From positions 1 through 43,293 of the forward strand of contig NZ_JOJM01000067.1 of assembly GCF_000720325.1 (NCBI RefSeq): a stretch of DNA of 43,293 bases, written 5' to 3'. The translations under genes and the position numbers were made by a program. Source of the DNA: Streptomyces sp. NRRL B-1347 (GTDB lineage Bacteria > Actinomycetota > Actinomycetes > Streptomycetales > Streptomycetaceae). Below are positions 5,620-24,104 of the stretch, piece by piece. How positions within the stretch are numbered: the stretch's first letter is position 1; each line of letters starts with the position of its first letter. The notes under the pieces were generated by a model. That model was not told the origin of the DNA. It saw only the letters and a list, made by a program, of their open reading frames with translations, and did not search any database.

Positions 5620-6963
5620 GTGAGCGAGCCGACCACGGGCGGCAGGGTGAACGGGGCGGGGGCCGTGTCCGGTGAGGACGAGGTCGTCGACCTCTGCCGG
5701 GACCTGATCCGCATGGACACCAGCAACTACGGCGACCACTCGGGGCCGGGGGAGCGCAAGGCCGCCGAGTACGTCGCGGAGAAGCTCGCGGAGGTGGGGC
5801 TCGAACCGCGGATCTTCGAGTCGCACCCGGGGCGCGCCTCCACGGTGGCCCGCATCGAGGGCGAGGACCCGTCGCGGCCCGCGCTGCTCATCCACGGCCA
5901 CACCGACGTCGTGCCCGCCAACGCCCAGGACTGGACGCACCACCCCTTCTCCGGGGAGATCGCGGACGGCTGCCTGTGGGGCCGCGGCGCCGTCGACATG
6001 AAAGACATGGACGCGATGACCCTCGCGGTCGTGCGCGACCGGCTGCGCAGCGGCCGCAAGCCGCCGCGGGACATCGTGCTCGCCTTCCTCGCGGACGAGG
6101 AGGCGGGCGGCACGTACGGGGCGCGGTACCTGGTGGACAACCACCCGGACCTCTTCGACGGCGTGACCGAGGCGATCAGCGAGGTCGGCGGCTTCTCCTT
6201 CACCGTCAACGAGAAGCTGCGGCTGTACCTCGTGGAGACGGCCCAGAAGGGCATGCACTGGATGAAGCTGACCGTGGACGGCACCGCGGGACACGGCTCC
6301 ATGATCCACAAGGACAACGCGATCACGGAGCTGTCGGAGGCCGTCGGGCGGCTCGGGCGGCACAAGTTCCCGATCCGGGTCACCAAGACGCTGCGGCACT
6401 TCCTCGACGAGCTGGGCGACGCCCTCGGCACCGAGCTCGACCCGGAGAACATGGACGAGACGCTCGCCAAGCTCGGCGGCATCGCCAAGCTGATCGGCGC
6501 CTCGCTCCAGAACACCGCGAACCCGACGCAGCTGGGCGCCGGCTACAAGGTCAACGTGATCCCGGGGCAGGCCACCGCGCACGTGGACGGGCGGTTCCTG
6601 CCGGGGTACGAGGAGGAGTTCCTCGCCGACCTGGACCGGATCCTGGGGCCGAACGTCAGGCGTGAGGACGTGCACGCGGACAAGGCCCTGGAGACCACCT
6701 TCGACGGCGCGCTCGTGGACGCCATGCAGCTGGCGCTCCAGGCCGAGGACCCCATCGCCCGCGCCGTGCCGTACATGCTCTCGGCCGGCACGGACGCCAA
6801 GTCCTTCGACGACCTCGGCATCCGCGGCTTCGGCTTCGCGCCGCTCAAGCTGCCGCCGGAGCTGGACTTCGCGGGCATGTTCCACGGCGTGGACGAGCGG
6901 GTACCGGTGGACGGGCTGAAGTTCGGCGTGCGCGTACTCGACCGCTTCATCGACGCTTCGTAA
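5620..6963 (+). CDS. M20-family metallopeptidase / dipeptidase
   Basis: A 447-residue zinc hydrolase of the M20/ArgE/DapE family. The metal-binding pattern is complete: HGHTD (His94, with Asp96), VDMKD (bridging Asp126) and DEEAGG (catalytic Glu160 and metal Glu161), and the late C-terminal histidine is present in MFHGVDERV. The central dimerisation domain is visible from about residue 200 to 320. There is no signal peptide, so the enzyme is cytoplasmic. The GTG start at 5620 has gggagga upstream. The family cleaves dipeptides, acyl-amino acids or similar amides; the substrate cannot be told from the sequence. It lies directly upstream of the chaplin genes but is separated from them by 182 bp, so probably not co-transcribed. 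Confidence 0.9.
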   Translation: MSEPTTGGRVNGAGAVSGEDEVVDLCRDLIRMDTSNYGDHSGPGERKAAEYVAEKLAEVGLEPRIFESHPGRASTVARIEGEDPSRPALLIHGHTDVVPANAQDWTHHPFSGEIADGCLWGRGAVDMKDMDAMTLAVVRDRLRSGRKPPRDIVLAFLADEEAGGTYGARYLVDNHPDLFDGVTEAISEVGGFSFTVNEKLRLYLVETAQKGMHWMKLTVDGTAGHGSMIHKDNAITELSEAVGRLGRHKFPIRVTKTLRHFLDELGDALGTELDPENMDETLAKLGGIAKLIGASLQNTANPTQLGAGYKVNVIPGQATAHVDGRFLPGYEEEFLADLDRILGPNVRREDVHADKALETTFDGALVDAMQLALQAEDPIARAVPYMLSAGTDAKSFDDLGIRGFGFAPLKLPPELDFAGMFHGVDERVPVDGLKFGVRVLDRFIDAS

Positions 6964-18721: not shown

Positions 18722-19951
18722 ATGTATGCCTGGCCCGCTTCTGAGGTCCCCGCCCTGCCTGGCAAGGGCCGCGACCTCCGGATCCACGACACCGCGACCG
18801 GTGACCTCGTCACCCTCGAGCCCGGTCCCGTCGCCCGTCTCTACGTCTGCGGCATCACTCCGTACGACGCGACCCACATGGGTCACGCGGCGACCTACAA
18901 CGCGTTCGACCTCGTGCAGCGCGTGTGGCTCGACACGAAGCGGCAGGTGCACTACGTACAGAACGTGACCGACGTGGACGATCCGCTCCTGGAGCGGGCG
19001 AACCGCGACGGCAAGGACTGGATGGAGCTCGCGCAGTCCGAAACCGCGCTGTTCCGCGAGGACATGACCGCCCTGCGGCTGCTTCCGCCCCAGCACTACG
19101 TGGGCGCCGTCGAGTCGATACCCGGGATCGTGCCGCTCGTGGAGCGGCTGCGGGACCAGGGTGCCGCGTACGAGCTCGACGGGGACGTCTACTTCTCCGT
19201 GGAGGCCGATCCGCACTTCGGCGAGGTGTCGGGGCTCGACGCCGCCGCCATGCGGCTGCTCTCCGCCGAGCGCGGCGGCGACCCGGACCGGCCCGGCAAG
19301 AAGAACCCGCTCGACCCGATGCTGTGGATGGCGGCCCGCGAGGGCGAGCCCAGCTGGGACGGCGCCTCGCTCGGCCGCGGCCGGCCGGGCTGGCACATCG
19401 AGTGCGTGGCGATCGCCCTCGACCACCTGGGGATGGGCTTCGACGTCCAGGGCGGCGGCTCCGACCTCGCCTTCCCGCACCACGAGATGGGCGCGTCCCA
19501 CGCGCAGGCCCTCACCGGGGAGCACCCCTTCGCCAAGGCGTACGTGCACGCCGGGATGGTCGCGCTCAACGGCGCCAAGATGTCCAAGTCCAAGGGCAAC
19601 CTGGTGTTCGTGTCGAAGCTCCGGCACGACGGCGTCGACCCCGCCGCCATCCGGCTCGCGCTCCTCGCCCACCACTACCGCGCCGACTGGGAGTGGACCG
19701 ACCAGGTCCTCCAGGACGCCGTCGAGCGCCTCGGGCGCTGGCGCGCCGCCGTGTCCCGGCCGGACGGGCCGTCCGCCGACGGACTCGTCGAGGAGCTGCG
19801 CGAGGCCCTCGCCAACGACCTGGACGCGCCCGCCGCGCTCGCCGCCGTGGACCGCTGGGTCGCCCGTCAGGACGCCGAGGGCGGCGCGGACGAGGGGGCG
19901 CCCGGAGTGGTGTCGCGCGCCGTCGACGCACTGCTCGGCGTGGCCCTGTAG
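18722..19951 (+). CDS. mshC: Cysteine:glucosaminyl-inositol ligase (mycothiol synthesis)
   Basis: A 409-residue paralogue of cysteinyl-tRNA synthetase that joins cysteine to 1-D-myo-inosityl-2-amino-2-deoxy-alpha-D-glucopyranoside, the fourth step of mycothiol synthesis. Visible: zinc-ligand Cys43 in YVCGITPYD, the HIGH-like motif THMGH (51-55), [10 protein letters not shown] and the KMSKS loop (286-290). It lacks the tRNA anticodon-binding domain and has the length expected for MshC. The hexamer taggct (18710-18715) lies 6 bases before the ATG, so transcription may start at the initiation codon itself. A 102-bp gap separates it from the upstream gene. Its stop codon is the first base triplet of a 15-bp tandem repeat. 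Confidence 0.96.
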
Positions 19952-20115: not shown

Positions 20116-20799
20116 TCACCTGGTGATCACGATGGCGAGCAGGATGCCCGGGTTGTTGGTGTCGTAGTAGCCGATGACCGGCTGCCCGTACGCGAAGGCC
20201 TCCTGCACCTGGTCGCGGGTGCGGTCGAGCGGGTTGATGAAGACGCGCCAGTCGCCGTCCACGTGCAGATAGAGCAGCGTGGCCTGGCCGGGCAGGGGCT
20301 GGATGACGTCCCAGAAGCTCTCCGCCACGTTGCCCGACAGGGCCTGCGTGGAGATCGTGGGCGCCTGCGCCTGCGGGACCTGCTGCTGCCCGAGCTGCTG
20401 GAGCAGCTGCTGGAACGGCTGCTGCTGGCCGAGCTGCTGCATCTGCTGGCGCAGGTGCGGCGGGATCTGCTGGCCCTGGATCTGCTGCTGGCCGAAGGGC
20501 TGCTGCTGACCTTGCTGGCCGAACGGCCGCTGCTGGCCGATCTGGCCCTGCTGACCGGTCTGCGGCGGCGCGGTGCTCGGGCCCTGCTGGCCGTGCTGCT
20601 GGCCGATGCCCTGCTGGCCGTACTGCTGCTGTGAGAACGGCTGCTGTTGCTGGCCGAAGGGCTGCTGCTGGGAGAACGGCTGTTGTTGCGAGAACGGCTG
20701 CTGCTGGCCGAACGGTTGCTGTTGGCCGTACTGCTGCGAGCCGAAGGGCTGCTGACCGTACTGCTGGCCCAGCTGACTCATTTGCGGGGTGGTGCTCAT
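20116..20799 (-). CDS. Prion-like glutamine-rich protein sharing a C-terminal domain with the adjacent S8 protease
   Basis: A 227-residue protein. Residues 1-147 are low complexity: about 66 are Gln, arranged as degenerate repeats of the type GQQQPF and SQQQPF with Tyr, Phe and Gly. This is the composition of prion-like or phase-separating sequences. Residues ~150-227 are globular. Residues 176-227 (LYLHVDGDWR to AIVITR) align without gaps over 38 positions with the C terminus of the protease encoded just upstream (residues 535-584 of that protein). Of the first 32 positions, 14 are identical, including GxWR, AFAxG and P. The ATG at 20799 is chosen because ggaaggtgg precedes it; an in-frame start 21 bp upstream is less well placed. 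No signal peptide or membrane segment. The gap to the protease gene is 64 bp, so one operon is likely. I do not recognise a named family. Inference: a scaffold or substrate partner of the protease. Confidence 0.8.
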   Translation of the reverse strand: MSTTPQMSQLGQQYGQQPFGSQQYGQQQPFGQQQPFSQQQPFSQQQPFGQQQQPFSQQQYGQQGIGQQHGQQGPSTAPPQTGQQGQIGQQRPFGQQGQQQPFGQQQIQGQQIPPHLRQQMQQLGQQQPFQQLLQQLGQQQVPQAQAPTISTQALSGNVAESFWDVIQPLPGQATLLYLHVDGDWRVFINPLDRTRDQVQEAFAYGQPVIGYYDTNNPGILLAIVITR

Positions 20800-20863
20800 G
20801 CGGGTGCCACCTTCCGTCAATGGTCGGTCCGTTTGCCTTGCTTCCTGTGCTTGCCGCGGTGGT

Positions 20864-22618
20864 TCAGCCCGTGACGACCAGGCCCACGACCTCGTCGCCC
20901 GCGAACCAGACGCGTACGTCGGGGGACCCGCCCGCGAAGGCGGAGTGCACCGCCTGGCGGATCTCGGGCGTCGGATGGTTCAGGTTGCGCCACTCCCCGG
21001 TCACGAAGAGCCGCAGGCGCGGCGGGAGTTCCGGCGGATAGGGGAGCAGTTCGTCCCAGTAGCGCTCGGCGCGGCCCGAGCCCACCGCCGACGGCAGGAG
21101 CTTGGTGACCGCCGCCTTGATGTCGGGGCGGTTGCCGATCCGCTGCGACGCCGGGCGGCCCGGCGCGTCCTGCTGCGGCGAGCCCGTCGCCCGCAGCACC
21201 GCACGCGCGCGTGCGGACGTCATCAGCTGCTGGTCCGCCGCCTTGAGCATGCCCTGCAGCGAGACGATCGCGCCGACCACGATCGGGGACGCCGACGACG
21301 TGCCGGAGAACGTGTCGGTGTACCAGGCGATCTCGTCCACACCGCCCTGGAGGTCGCCCGGCTGGTTCCAGAAGCCGCCGGTGGTCGTGGTCTCGCGGCC
21401 CCAGCCCTGCGCGTCCACGCGCGCCCCGTAGTTGGAGAACGCCAGGCGCGAGCGGTCCGGGCCGTGGTCGCGGCCGTGCGTGCCGGGCGGCGGCGCGCCC
21501 GCGCCGACCAGGACGGCTTCGGACGACGGGTTGGACGGGTTGAACGGGTTGCGCCACCAGGACGGGAACTCGTCCGGACGGCGCTCGTAGCGCGCGTCGT
21601 CGAGCGACTCGGCGCCGTTGCCCGCCGCCCCGACGACGACGATGCCCTTGGCCGTGGCGTAGCGGACCGCCGCGTAGTCGTCGGGCCACCACTCGACGGC
21701 GATGTAGCCGCGCTGGTCGTCGCGGTCCTCGAAGTCGAACCTCGGTCCGGGCCGGTGCAGTTCGATGAGGATGACGTCGCCGGGCCCGAGCCGGTCCGCG
21801 GCCGCGTGGATGGTCGCCGCGGTGCCGCTGGGCAGGAAGGACGCGGCCGCCGTCACGGCGTCCGGCACGATGCCGGTGACCCCGGACCCGTTGCGGTCGC
21901 CGCCGATTACGCCGATCACGGCGGTGCCGTGGTTGCGCCACGACAGGTCCTGGATCGGGGTGCCGATGACCACGCCCGCGAGCCTCGCGGACAGGTCCTC
22001 GTGGCTGAGCTGCCAGGCGCCCTCGATGTCGATGACGGTCACGCCGTCACCGCCGCCGCCGGGCCGCTGCCAGGCCCACTGCGCGTCCACGCCCTCGGGG
22101 GCCGGGCGCAGATAGCCCTGACGGCCGGTGAAGTCGGGGGTGACCGGCGCACCTTCCTTGCGGCGCCGGCCCTCGTCCGGCTCGCTGCCGCCGCCCTGCT
22201 GGCCGATCGTGCCCAGCGTGGCGGGGACGGCGCCGGGTTTGACGTACGCCGTGTCGATGCCGGGCAGCGCCGAGATCCGCGCGCGCAGTTCGGGGGCGCG
22301 GTCCGTGCCGCCGCGCACCCGGTAGAAGAGGGTCAGGTCGGGCACGTCGTCCAGGCTGCCCGCCACCGACGCCTGGAGCCGGTCCTCGCTGCCGAACAGC
22401 GGCTCCAGGGTGAGTTGTTCGTCGCTGAGGAACATGTTCAGGGCCGAGACGTCGGCACCCGTCGCCGAGCGGACGCCGTGCTCCTGGGCGCGCAGCCGGG
22501 CCTCCGGCCGCGCGACGACGATGAGTTCCTGCTCGGTCGCCCGATAGGTGAATCCCGCTCCGTCGGGTCCAGGGCCACTGCCTCCCGGATCGCCGCCCTG
22601 CCGCACCTGGTCGGTCAT
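20864..22618 (-). CDS. Cytoplasmic S8 (subtilisin-family) serine protease
   Basis: A 584-residue protein with a complete catalytic triad: Asp197 in VTVIDIEG, His230 in WRNHGTAVIG and Ser441 in FSGTSSASP, plus the oxyanion Asn334 in AAGNGAE. Residues ~23-135 form an extra N-terminal domain (TYRATEQELIVVARPEARLR to PGIDTAYVKPG) that may act as an inhibitory propeptide. Residues ~512-584 form a C-terminal domain; its last 50 residues are shared with the Gln-rich protein encoded next. There is no signal peptide: the N terminus is MTDQVRQGGDPGGSGPGPDG. Most Streptomyces subtilisins are secreted, so this one probably acts inside the cell. ATG 22618 is preferred to one 51 bp upstream because family-like sequence starts there. 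Function unknown; a regulated intracellular protease paired with a partner is inferred. Confidence 0.87.
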   Translation of the reverse strand: MTDQVRQGGDPGGSGPGPDGAGFTYRATEQELIVVARPEARLRAQEHGVRSATGADVSALNMFLSDEQLTLEPLFGSEDRLQASVAGSLDDVPDLTLFYRVRGGTDRAPELRARISALPGIDTAYVKPGAVPATLGTIGQQGGGSEPDEGRRRKEGAPVTPDFTGRQGYLRPAPEGVDAQWAWQRPGGGGDGVTVIDIEGAWQLSHEDLSARLAGVVIGTPIQDLSWRNHGTAVIGVIGGDRNGSGVTGIVPDAVTAAASFLPSGTAATIHAAADRLGPGDVILIELHRPGPRFDFEDRDDQRGYIAVEWWPDDYAAVRYATAKGIVVVGAAGNGAESLDDARYERRPDEFPSWWRNPFNPSNPSSEAVLVGAGAPPPGTHGRDHGPDRSRLAFSNYGARVDAQGWGRETTTTGGFWNQPGDLQGGVDEIAWYTDTFSGTSSASPIVVGAIVSLQGMLKAADQQLMTSARARAVLRATGSPQQDAPGRPASQRIGNRPDIKAAVTKLLPSAVGSGRAERYWDELLPYPPELPPRLRLFVTGEWRNLNHPTPEIRQAVHSAFAGGSPDVRVWFAGDEVVGLVVTG

Positions 22619-22889: not shown

Positions 22890-22975
22890 CGGCCGCTCAG
22901 TCCTGACCGGCGCGGTCGCTCGGTCCCGACCGACACGGCCGCTCAGTCCTGACCGGTGCGACGCTCAGTCCTCGG
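22890..22975. repeat. ~23-bp tandem repeat, four units, running into the PAC2 stop codon
   Basis: Units share ctcagtcctgaccgg, found at 22896, 22919 (as ctcggtcccgaccga), 22942 and 22964 (shortened). Spacing is 23, 23 and 22 bp. The last unit contains the PAC2 stop (tca, 22965-22967), so the stop-codon neighbourhood has been copied about three times downstream. Confidence 0.85.
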
Positions 22976-24104
22976 AGGAATCCCCCGGCTCGGCGTCCGG
23001 CGCGGTGCCGGGCTTCTGGCCCGGCTCCGCCGTGTCCGCCTTGCCCTGGGGCTTGTCGCCCGGCTCGTCGTCCGGCTTGTCGCCCGTCCTGTCCTCGGAC
23101 TTGTCGTCCGCCGCGGGTCTGGCCGTGGCGCCGGTGCCGGACTCCGGGCCTGTGTCCGGGCGCGGCTGCGGCTTCGGCGGGCGGGTGCGCTCGCTCGGCG
23201 CGTCCCGCAGATAGGCCGCGCCCTCGCCCTCCGACGCGACGCCGCCGACCTGGCCGGGGCCGCCCCCGTCGCGCCGCCGCAGATAGCGCTCGAACTCGCG
23301 GGCGATCGCCTCGCCCGAGGCCTCTGGCAGCTCCGCGGTGTCGCGGGCCTCCTCCAGGGACTGGACGTACTCGGCGACCTCGCTGTCCTCGGCCGCCAGC
23401 TGGTCGACGCCCAGCTGCCAGGCGCGCGCGTCCTCCGTCAGCTCGCCGAGCGGGATCCTGAGGTCGATCAGGTCCTCCAGGCGGTTGAGGAGGGCGAGCG
23501 TCGCCTTCGGGTTCGGCGGCTGCGAGACGTAGTGCGGCACGGCGGCCCACAGGCTGACCGCCGGGACGCCCGCGTGCGTGCACGCCTCCTGGAGGATGCC
23601 GACGATGCCCGTCGGGCCCTCGTACTTCGTCTCCTCCAGGTCCATGGTGCGCGCCAGGTCCGCGTCGGAGGTGACGCCGCTGACCGGAACCGGCCGGGTG
23701 TGCGGGGTGTCGCCGAGCAGCGCGCCCATGATCACGACCAGCTCGACGCCCAGCTCGTGGGCGAAGCCCAGCAGCTCGTTGCAGAACGAACGCCAGCGCA
23801 TGGACGGCTCGATGCCCCGCACCAGGACCAGGTCGCGCGGCTTGTCGCCGCCGACGCGGACGACCGAGAGCCGGGTCGTCGGCCACGTGATCTTGCGCAC
23901 GCCGCCGTCCAGCCACACCGTGGGGCGGTTGACCTGGAAGTCGTAGTAGTCCTCCGCGTCCAGTGCCGCGAAGACCTCGCCCTTCCACTCCTTGTCGAGA
24001 TGCGCGACCGCGGTGGAGGCGGCGTCGCCGGCGTCGTTCCAGCCCTCGAACGCGGCCACCATGACCGGGTCGATCAGCTCGGGTACCCCCTCGAGCTCGA
24101 TCAC
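22965..24104 (-). CDS. PAC2-family protein, probable ParJ-like chromosome-segregation factor
   Basis: A 379-residue protein. Residues 1-~285 form a PAC2 (proteasome assembly chaperone 2-like) domain with VMVAAFEGWNDAGDAAS, DLVLVRGIEPSMRWRSF, VVIMGALLGDTPHTRPVPV and SLWAAVPHYVSQPPNPKA. The C-terminal ~90 residues are disordered and rich in Asp, Pro, Lys and Gly. PAC2 proteins next to mshC are conserved in actinobacteria. From memory, the S. coelicolor gene in this position (SCO1662) is parJ, whose product limits ParA polymerisation during sporulation; I infer orthology from position and fold, without a search. The GTG start at 24104 has an ideal ribosome binding site, aaggagg, 5 bases upstream. 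Confidence 0.85.
   Translation of the reverse strand: MIELEGVPELIDPVMVAAFEGWNDAGDAASTAVAHLDKEWKGEVFAALDAEDYYDFQVNRPTVWLDGGVRKITWPTTRLSVVRVGGDKPRDLVLVRGIEPSMRWRSFCNELLGFAHELGVELVVIMGALLGDTPHTRPVPVSGVTSDADLARTMDLEETKYEGPTGIVGILQEACTHAGVPAVSLWAAVPHYVSQPPNPKATLALLNRLEDLIDLRIPLGELTEDARAWQLGVDQLAAEDSEVAEYVQSLEEARDTAELPEASGEAIAREFERYLRRRDGGGPGQVGGVASEGEGAAYLRDAPSERTRPPKPQPRPDTGPESGTGATARPAADDKSEDRTGDKPDDEPGDKPQGKADTAEPGQKPGTAPDAEPGDSSED

Follow-up and report, generated by a model that had tools for sequence, protein, structure and literature searches.

Question and locus

Why should a putative intracellular peptidase have its small C-terminal domain in common with the glutamine-rich protein encoded beside it? 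The question is raised by two genes in a stretch of 43,293 nucleotides (hereafter the window) from the 10.2 Mb genome of Streptomyces sp. NRRL B-1347. The first, P1 (20864..22618, minus strand), encodes an S8 (subtilase) peptidase of 584 residues, and the second, P2 (20116..20799, minus strand), a Gln-rich protein of 227 residues. An initial annotation had placed the two on the same strand with a spacing of 64 bp, and the coordinates agree, with P2 downstream. The pair is flanked by genes for the mycothiol ligase MshC (18722..19951, plus strand; TIGR03447, 680 bits, cut-off 485) and a PAC2-family protein (22965..24104, minus strand; PF09754, 216 bits), and the other flanking genes identified encode SCO1664-family, DUF3090 and histidine phosphatase proteins; no NTPase was found among them. 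P2 is preceded by a nearly invariant ribosome-binding region, ACGGAAGGTGGCACCCGC (20800..20817, minus strand), and GGAAGGTG lies at most 40 nt from the P2 start in all 62 relatives.

Two proteins with a common C-terminal domain

P1 belongs to peptidase family S8 both by profile (PF00082, 40.2 bits, cut-off 21.8) and by its catalytic residues. Its catalytic domain (residues ~160-500; 21119..22141, minus strand) contains D197, H230, N334 and S441. All four are conserved in 42 of the 43 aligned sequences, the exception being L118, where the Asp is missing. No signal peptide is visible by eye, and P1 is probably a cytoplasmic peptidase. Residues ~24-130 (22229..22549, minus strand), for which no Pfam match was found, form a separate alpha/beta unit in the AlphaFold2 model, and Foldseek returned long alignments of P1 with pro-subtilisins in their unprocessed form, 3whi and 2e1p among them, pointing to a prodomain-like N-terminal domain. 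Named relatives of P1 are from Streptomyces, with up to 91% identity. Two narrower assignments were rejected: as a type VII mycosin (TIGR03921) P1 scores 34.1 bits against an equivalog cut-off of 278.75, and as an intracellular subtilisin (ISP) it should carry a LIPY or LIPF string, neither of which is present.

The first 145 residues of P2 (20365..20799, minus strand) are of low complexity, Gln-rich and almost free of lysine, and their pLDDT, taken per ten residues, is at most 63 in the predicted structure. In the 62 relatives this part spans 81-181 residues, with 33-50% Gln and about 2% charged residues; one Lys in total was counted in it across all of them. An STAPP/STSPY-like motif and MSxxP at the chosen start are present in every relative, and an LGQQQPF-like motif in 51 of the 62 under a strict pattern. 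Towards the end of the low-complexity part, a conserved LGQQQPFQQLLQ stretch (residues ~114-136; 20392..20460, minus strand) is predicted with low confidence to form two short helices.

Both proteins end in the same small domain of about 75 residues, comprising residues ~511-584 of P1 (20867..21088, minus strand) and residues ~153-227 of P2 (20119..20343, minus strand). The initial annotation was right about the sharing, including its count of 14 identities in the first 32 positions, which is exact on recount, but the boundaries that it gave (535-584 and 176-227) are too short. BLASTP aligns P1 and P2 with 36% identity over 58 residues (E 3e-7 as a single comparison). Their Smith-Waterman score of 89 exceeds that of every one of 20,000 shuffles (mean 23.8, s.d. 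4.4, maximum 57), and the match is therefore not due to chance. That annotation had also named a profile-profile search and the predicted folds as ways of judging the sharing, and both speak for it: families of 28 rows each, built on P1 and on P2, match in hhalign with 98.3% probability (E 1.8e-14, 67 columns), and the models of the two domains have the same order of elements, strand-strand-strand-helix-strand-strand. Five strands with a helix between the third and the fourth is the arrangement of an OB fold, and the shared domain is predicted to be an OB-like barrel.

The domain is also particular to this pair within its own genome, where a model of the P2 domain retrieved only the P1 and P2 places at E <=1. 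As a control we took the 17 other S8 matches of the genome, of which one lies below the Pfam cut-off and some are near contig ends. In 13 of the 17, the last 110 residues showed no likeness to any frame within 6 kb, and the remaining four matched neighbours only as two tandem S8 pairs.

Distribution and evolution of the pair

A scan of contigs for P1-type S8 peptidases gave 75 loci, 62 of which, all from Streptomyces, carry P1 with the OB-like domain. At each of these 62 close loci a P2 relative lies directly downstream on the same strand, so that the adjacency of the S8 and Gln-rich genes, on which the initial annotation had made its proposal depend, holds throughout. All 62 pairs are beside PAC2 and 61 are beside MshC, the count being one lower since the stretch of L030 ends short of that gene. 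In eight (L050, L051, L053, L054, L056, L059, L060 and L062), about 3 kb separates P2 from MshC. A long reverse-strand gene, by eye for a secreted glycoside hydrolase, occupies this interval at L050:8596-12081 and L056:8493-11552.

A genus sample of 392 genomes, which overlaps the previous set (12 of 30 loci compared are common to both), contained the OB-like domain in 64, and all 59 P2 genes found in it adjoin P1. The departures from the rule are few. Two genomes (G011 and G108) have a full P1 at the same locus, with intact catalytic residues and without P2. In two others (G018 and G258) the S8 protein is diverged and encoded elsewhere; the one in G018 has no triad Asp and adjoins a TerB gene (PF05099), and the neighbouring gene in G258 looks similar by eye. 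G168 (locus L119, about 5840-6095) has the start of P1 running in frame into an intact OB-like domain, with no P2 adjoining, a reduced P1 gene that is provisional given a genome 95% complete with 6% contamination. Finally, G300 has the usual pair and, elsewhere, a second P1 followed by a diverged Gln-rich gene with the LGQQQPF motif, which escaped the P2-domain model.

Outside this range the domain is scarce. Among 394 genomes sampled across the class it was found in seven, all from one genus of 137, and a protein search with the P2 domain gave 10 proteins, the named ones being Streptomyces hypotheticals; among the matches listed are the P2 relatives P0009 and P0010 from Streptomyces venezuelae. 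The S8 family itself is patchy, occurring in 10 of the 394 class genomes and three genera at E <=1e-40, and in five plasmid records of archaeal, cyanobacterial, proteobacterial and Bacillota origin. The best reading is that P1 and P2 constitute a dedicated two-gene unit. Against this, common ancestry at a single site, between PAC2 and MshC, may account for most of the adjacency.

Between close relatives, dN/dS is 0.19 in the P2 domain (39 pairs) and 0.15 in the P1 domain, which indicates purifying selection on both. Over larger distances the two domains part: the P2 domain falls below 45% identity in 534 genome pairs, where its median dN is 0.59 against 0.105 in the P1 domain. With one domain nearly frozen and the other so plastic, an interface tightly conserved over the whole surface is doubtful. 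The P2 types mostly track the MshC tree, on whose 62 rows they require five changes where shuffled types require 22.3; for either main P2 type, three changes are forced by starred branches.

A different domain in the same layout

At the other 13 of the 75 loci the OB-like domain is absent. Four of these distant S8 proteins stop at the catalytic domain (L072, L076, L078 and L080), L082 is a longer protein, and L073 has another tail of 145 residues with no copy nearby. The remaining seven (L069, L070, L074, L075, L077, L079 and L081) carry a different C-terminal domain of about 85 residues, which we named WPAHW after its motif and which has no detectable likeness to the OB-like domain (hhalign 0.6%). 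At six of the seven, a neighbouring small ORF encodes a free copy of WPAHW (49-60% identical, E 1e-25 to 1e-36), and a plasmid of Haloferax mediterranei has both a carrier and a free copy (78%, E 5e-41).

The same arrangement extends to other carriers. In the class sample, the three genomes with convincing matches each have a carrier with a free copy next to it (a fourth match, with E 5e-4 and an internal stop, was set aside), and two of the three carriers, in which no S8 domain was found, look by eye like repeat beta-propellers. The genus sample has WPAHW in five genomes: four have a carrier accompanied by a free copy, the carrier being S8 in two and astacin-like in two, and the fifth has a single occurrence (the G303 sequence is that of L074 and was counted once). 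The astacin-like and propeller-like carriers are named by motif and are presumably what these names imply; PF01400 was found on a related fragment. Taken by carrier, a free copy of about 84 residues is adjacent or one small gene away in 13 of 15, the misses being L081 and G097. In a large protein set, where the search admitted carriers of about 320-1030 residues, 127 were found, and PF00082 is present in 119 of the 120 listed, with one PF09471 (M64) protein. Solitary WPAHW proteins, sought between about 46 and 147 residues, are 84-90 residues long in 48 of the 49 among the matches listed.

Beside the free WPAHW copy there is in 13 of 13 cases a gene for a small low-complexity protein, mostly with repeated DAG/DGG-AP-like motifs, which are weak in L133; proteins with repeated DAG/NGG-AP-like motifs are found, for example, at L163:8501-8773, L149 from 7023, L077:8000-8362 and L132 from 1788. 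P2 unites in one chain the free domain and the low-complexity part that are separate genes in the WPAHW set.

Some of these loci have a further small gene. Six of the distant S8 genes are immediately preceded by one (L074:5608-5895, L075:5610-5897, L077:5571-5900, L080:5638-5895, L081:5656-5925 and L073:5637-5909), whose product resembles the S8 N-terminal region; ..YVKP.. occurs near the end of the five printed in full, and the BLAST likeness is weak in three (E 0.008-0.04). It is possibly a free-standing prodomain-like inhibitor. The Paenibacillus plasmid pART37 (L152) has a cluster of S8, trypsin-like, prodomain-like, S8 and histidine phosphatase genes, in which the annotation divides the second S8 protein and its prodomain-like part between two genes that overlap.

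What the partner may do

Because the two domains are the same, share a predicted topology, belong to genes adjacent in all close loci and have a counterpart in the WPAHW layout, docking is the best reading of the pair, and the sequences suggest that the shared domains bring enzyme and partner together. The C-terminal domain of P1 would be a docking module, and P2, whose gene has a conserved ribosome-binding site to itself, a free docking module on a disordered, Gln-rich and lysine-poor tail. These modules could co-assemble, like with like or in mixed oligomers, the multivalency of the tails would hold P1 in a low-complexity assembly, and this assembly may govern the timing of prodomain release. 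We give this whole sequence of events a probability of about 45%. Its weakest step concerns the tail, which is more likely a scaffold than a substrate. The docking reading draws support from the second pair in G300, the free OB-like domain in G168, the intact catalytic residues and the purifying selection; against it stand the near invariance of the P1 domain while that of P2 diverges, and the two genomes that keep P1 without P2. The same facts bear on the two-component system proposed in the initial annotation, an idea that is partly supported, being strengthened by the recurrence of the layout with WPAHW in distant S8 relatives and weakened by the solitary P1 genes and by the divergence of the P2 domain.

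Other explanations would give the shared domain a different role. P2 could be the dedicated substrate of P1, with the domain serving as a tether that keeps the Gln-rich tail at the active site so that P1 trims or releases it. Consistent with this, a motif of the tail is kept in all 62 relatives, the neighbours of WPAHW peptidases likewise include genes for low-complexity proteins, and every P2 of the genus sample has its P1; yet a similar protein is encoded beside the two propeller-like carriers that have no S8 domain, and we consider this reading rather unlikely. Those same loci imply that a free domain need not control proteolysis. Domain-only regulators act as decoys or caps in other signalling systems, and by analogy P2 might be a brake whose free domain either caps the site used by the P1 domain or competes with that domain for it. 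The tail-less WPAHW solos, the rapid divergence of the P2 domain and a ribosome-binding site that could yield an excess of P2 are all compatible with such a role, which would, however, have no need of a long Gln-rich tail and sits badly with the tolerance of P1 without P2 in two genomes; it appears quite improbable.

It is also conceivable that the domain copy has no such role, being a by-product of partial gene duplication, and that the two genes are neighbours only as descendants of a single insertion, located between PAC2 and MshC. The single site of all 62 loci, the broad agreement of P2 types with the MshC tree and the unequal divergence of the two domains would follow from it. A by-product would be less expected to show purifying selection between close P2 domains, to recur as a pair at a second site in G300, or to have a parallel with WPAHW across Actinobacteria and on a haloarchaeal plasmid, and we think this account unlikely.

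Comparison with known systems

Docking through a small domain has a precedent in effector-associated domains (EADs), described as small non-enzymatic, mostly alpha-helical domains that a peptidase has in common with the protein encoded next to it, and for which homotypic contact was proposed (Kaur et al. 2020, PMC7159879; 2021, PMC8195603). P1 and P2 likewise place one small domain on a peptidase and on its neighbour. Compared with what is described there, their domain is predicted to be an OB-like barrel, it is restricted to the pair in its own genome at E <=1 with no further copies on other effector or signalling proteins, the partner is Gln-rich and of low complexity, and the flanking genes identified include no NTPase. 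As the genome-wide spread of the domain and a core NTPase in the flanks were not found, we describe the pair as working like an EAD system and do not call it one.

With intracellular subtilisins, P1 shares an S8 domain without a visible signal peptide and Foldseek matches to ISP precursors; it differs from them, as far as the available account of the LIPY/F motif in the ISP propeptide goes (PMC6220982), in its larger prodomain-like region without that motif, its added C-terminal domain and its partner gene. An intracellular protease with a dedicated partner is also found in the nuclease-protease pairs (PMC12799240) and presumably in the CARD-NLR-like system (PMC13236601), although the trypsin-like proteases of these immunity systems have another fold and other partners, and the portions of both papers at hand do not mention an OB-like domain. 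P1 and P2 had no profile match at E <=1 among the known anti-phage defence families of PADLOC, and our literature search found no published description of a peptidase, free domain and low-complexity protein in this layout.

Broader meaning

The two domains may be instances of a general architecture that has no name as yet, in which a leaderless hydrolase (S8, astacin-like, M64 or propeller-like) with a C-terminal docking domain is accompanied by a neighbouring gene for the free domain and by a low-complexity polypeptide, separate or fused, the whole forming a higher-order particle or a condensate through which the enzyme is stored, activated or delivered. Such an architecture would have arisen at least twice, from unrelated-looking domains, and spread between Bacteria and Archaea; we put it forward tentatively, as a possibility that falls short of an even chance. 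If it is correct, it would add to the means of protease control or delivery a module made of a free docking domain and a low-complexity chain, and one layout would have been reached with two different-looking domains. The domain appended to leaderless peptidases would then be an assembly handle rather than a substrate-binding appendage.
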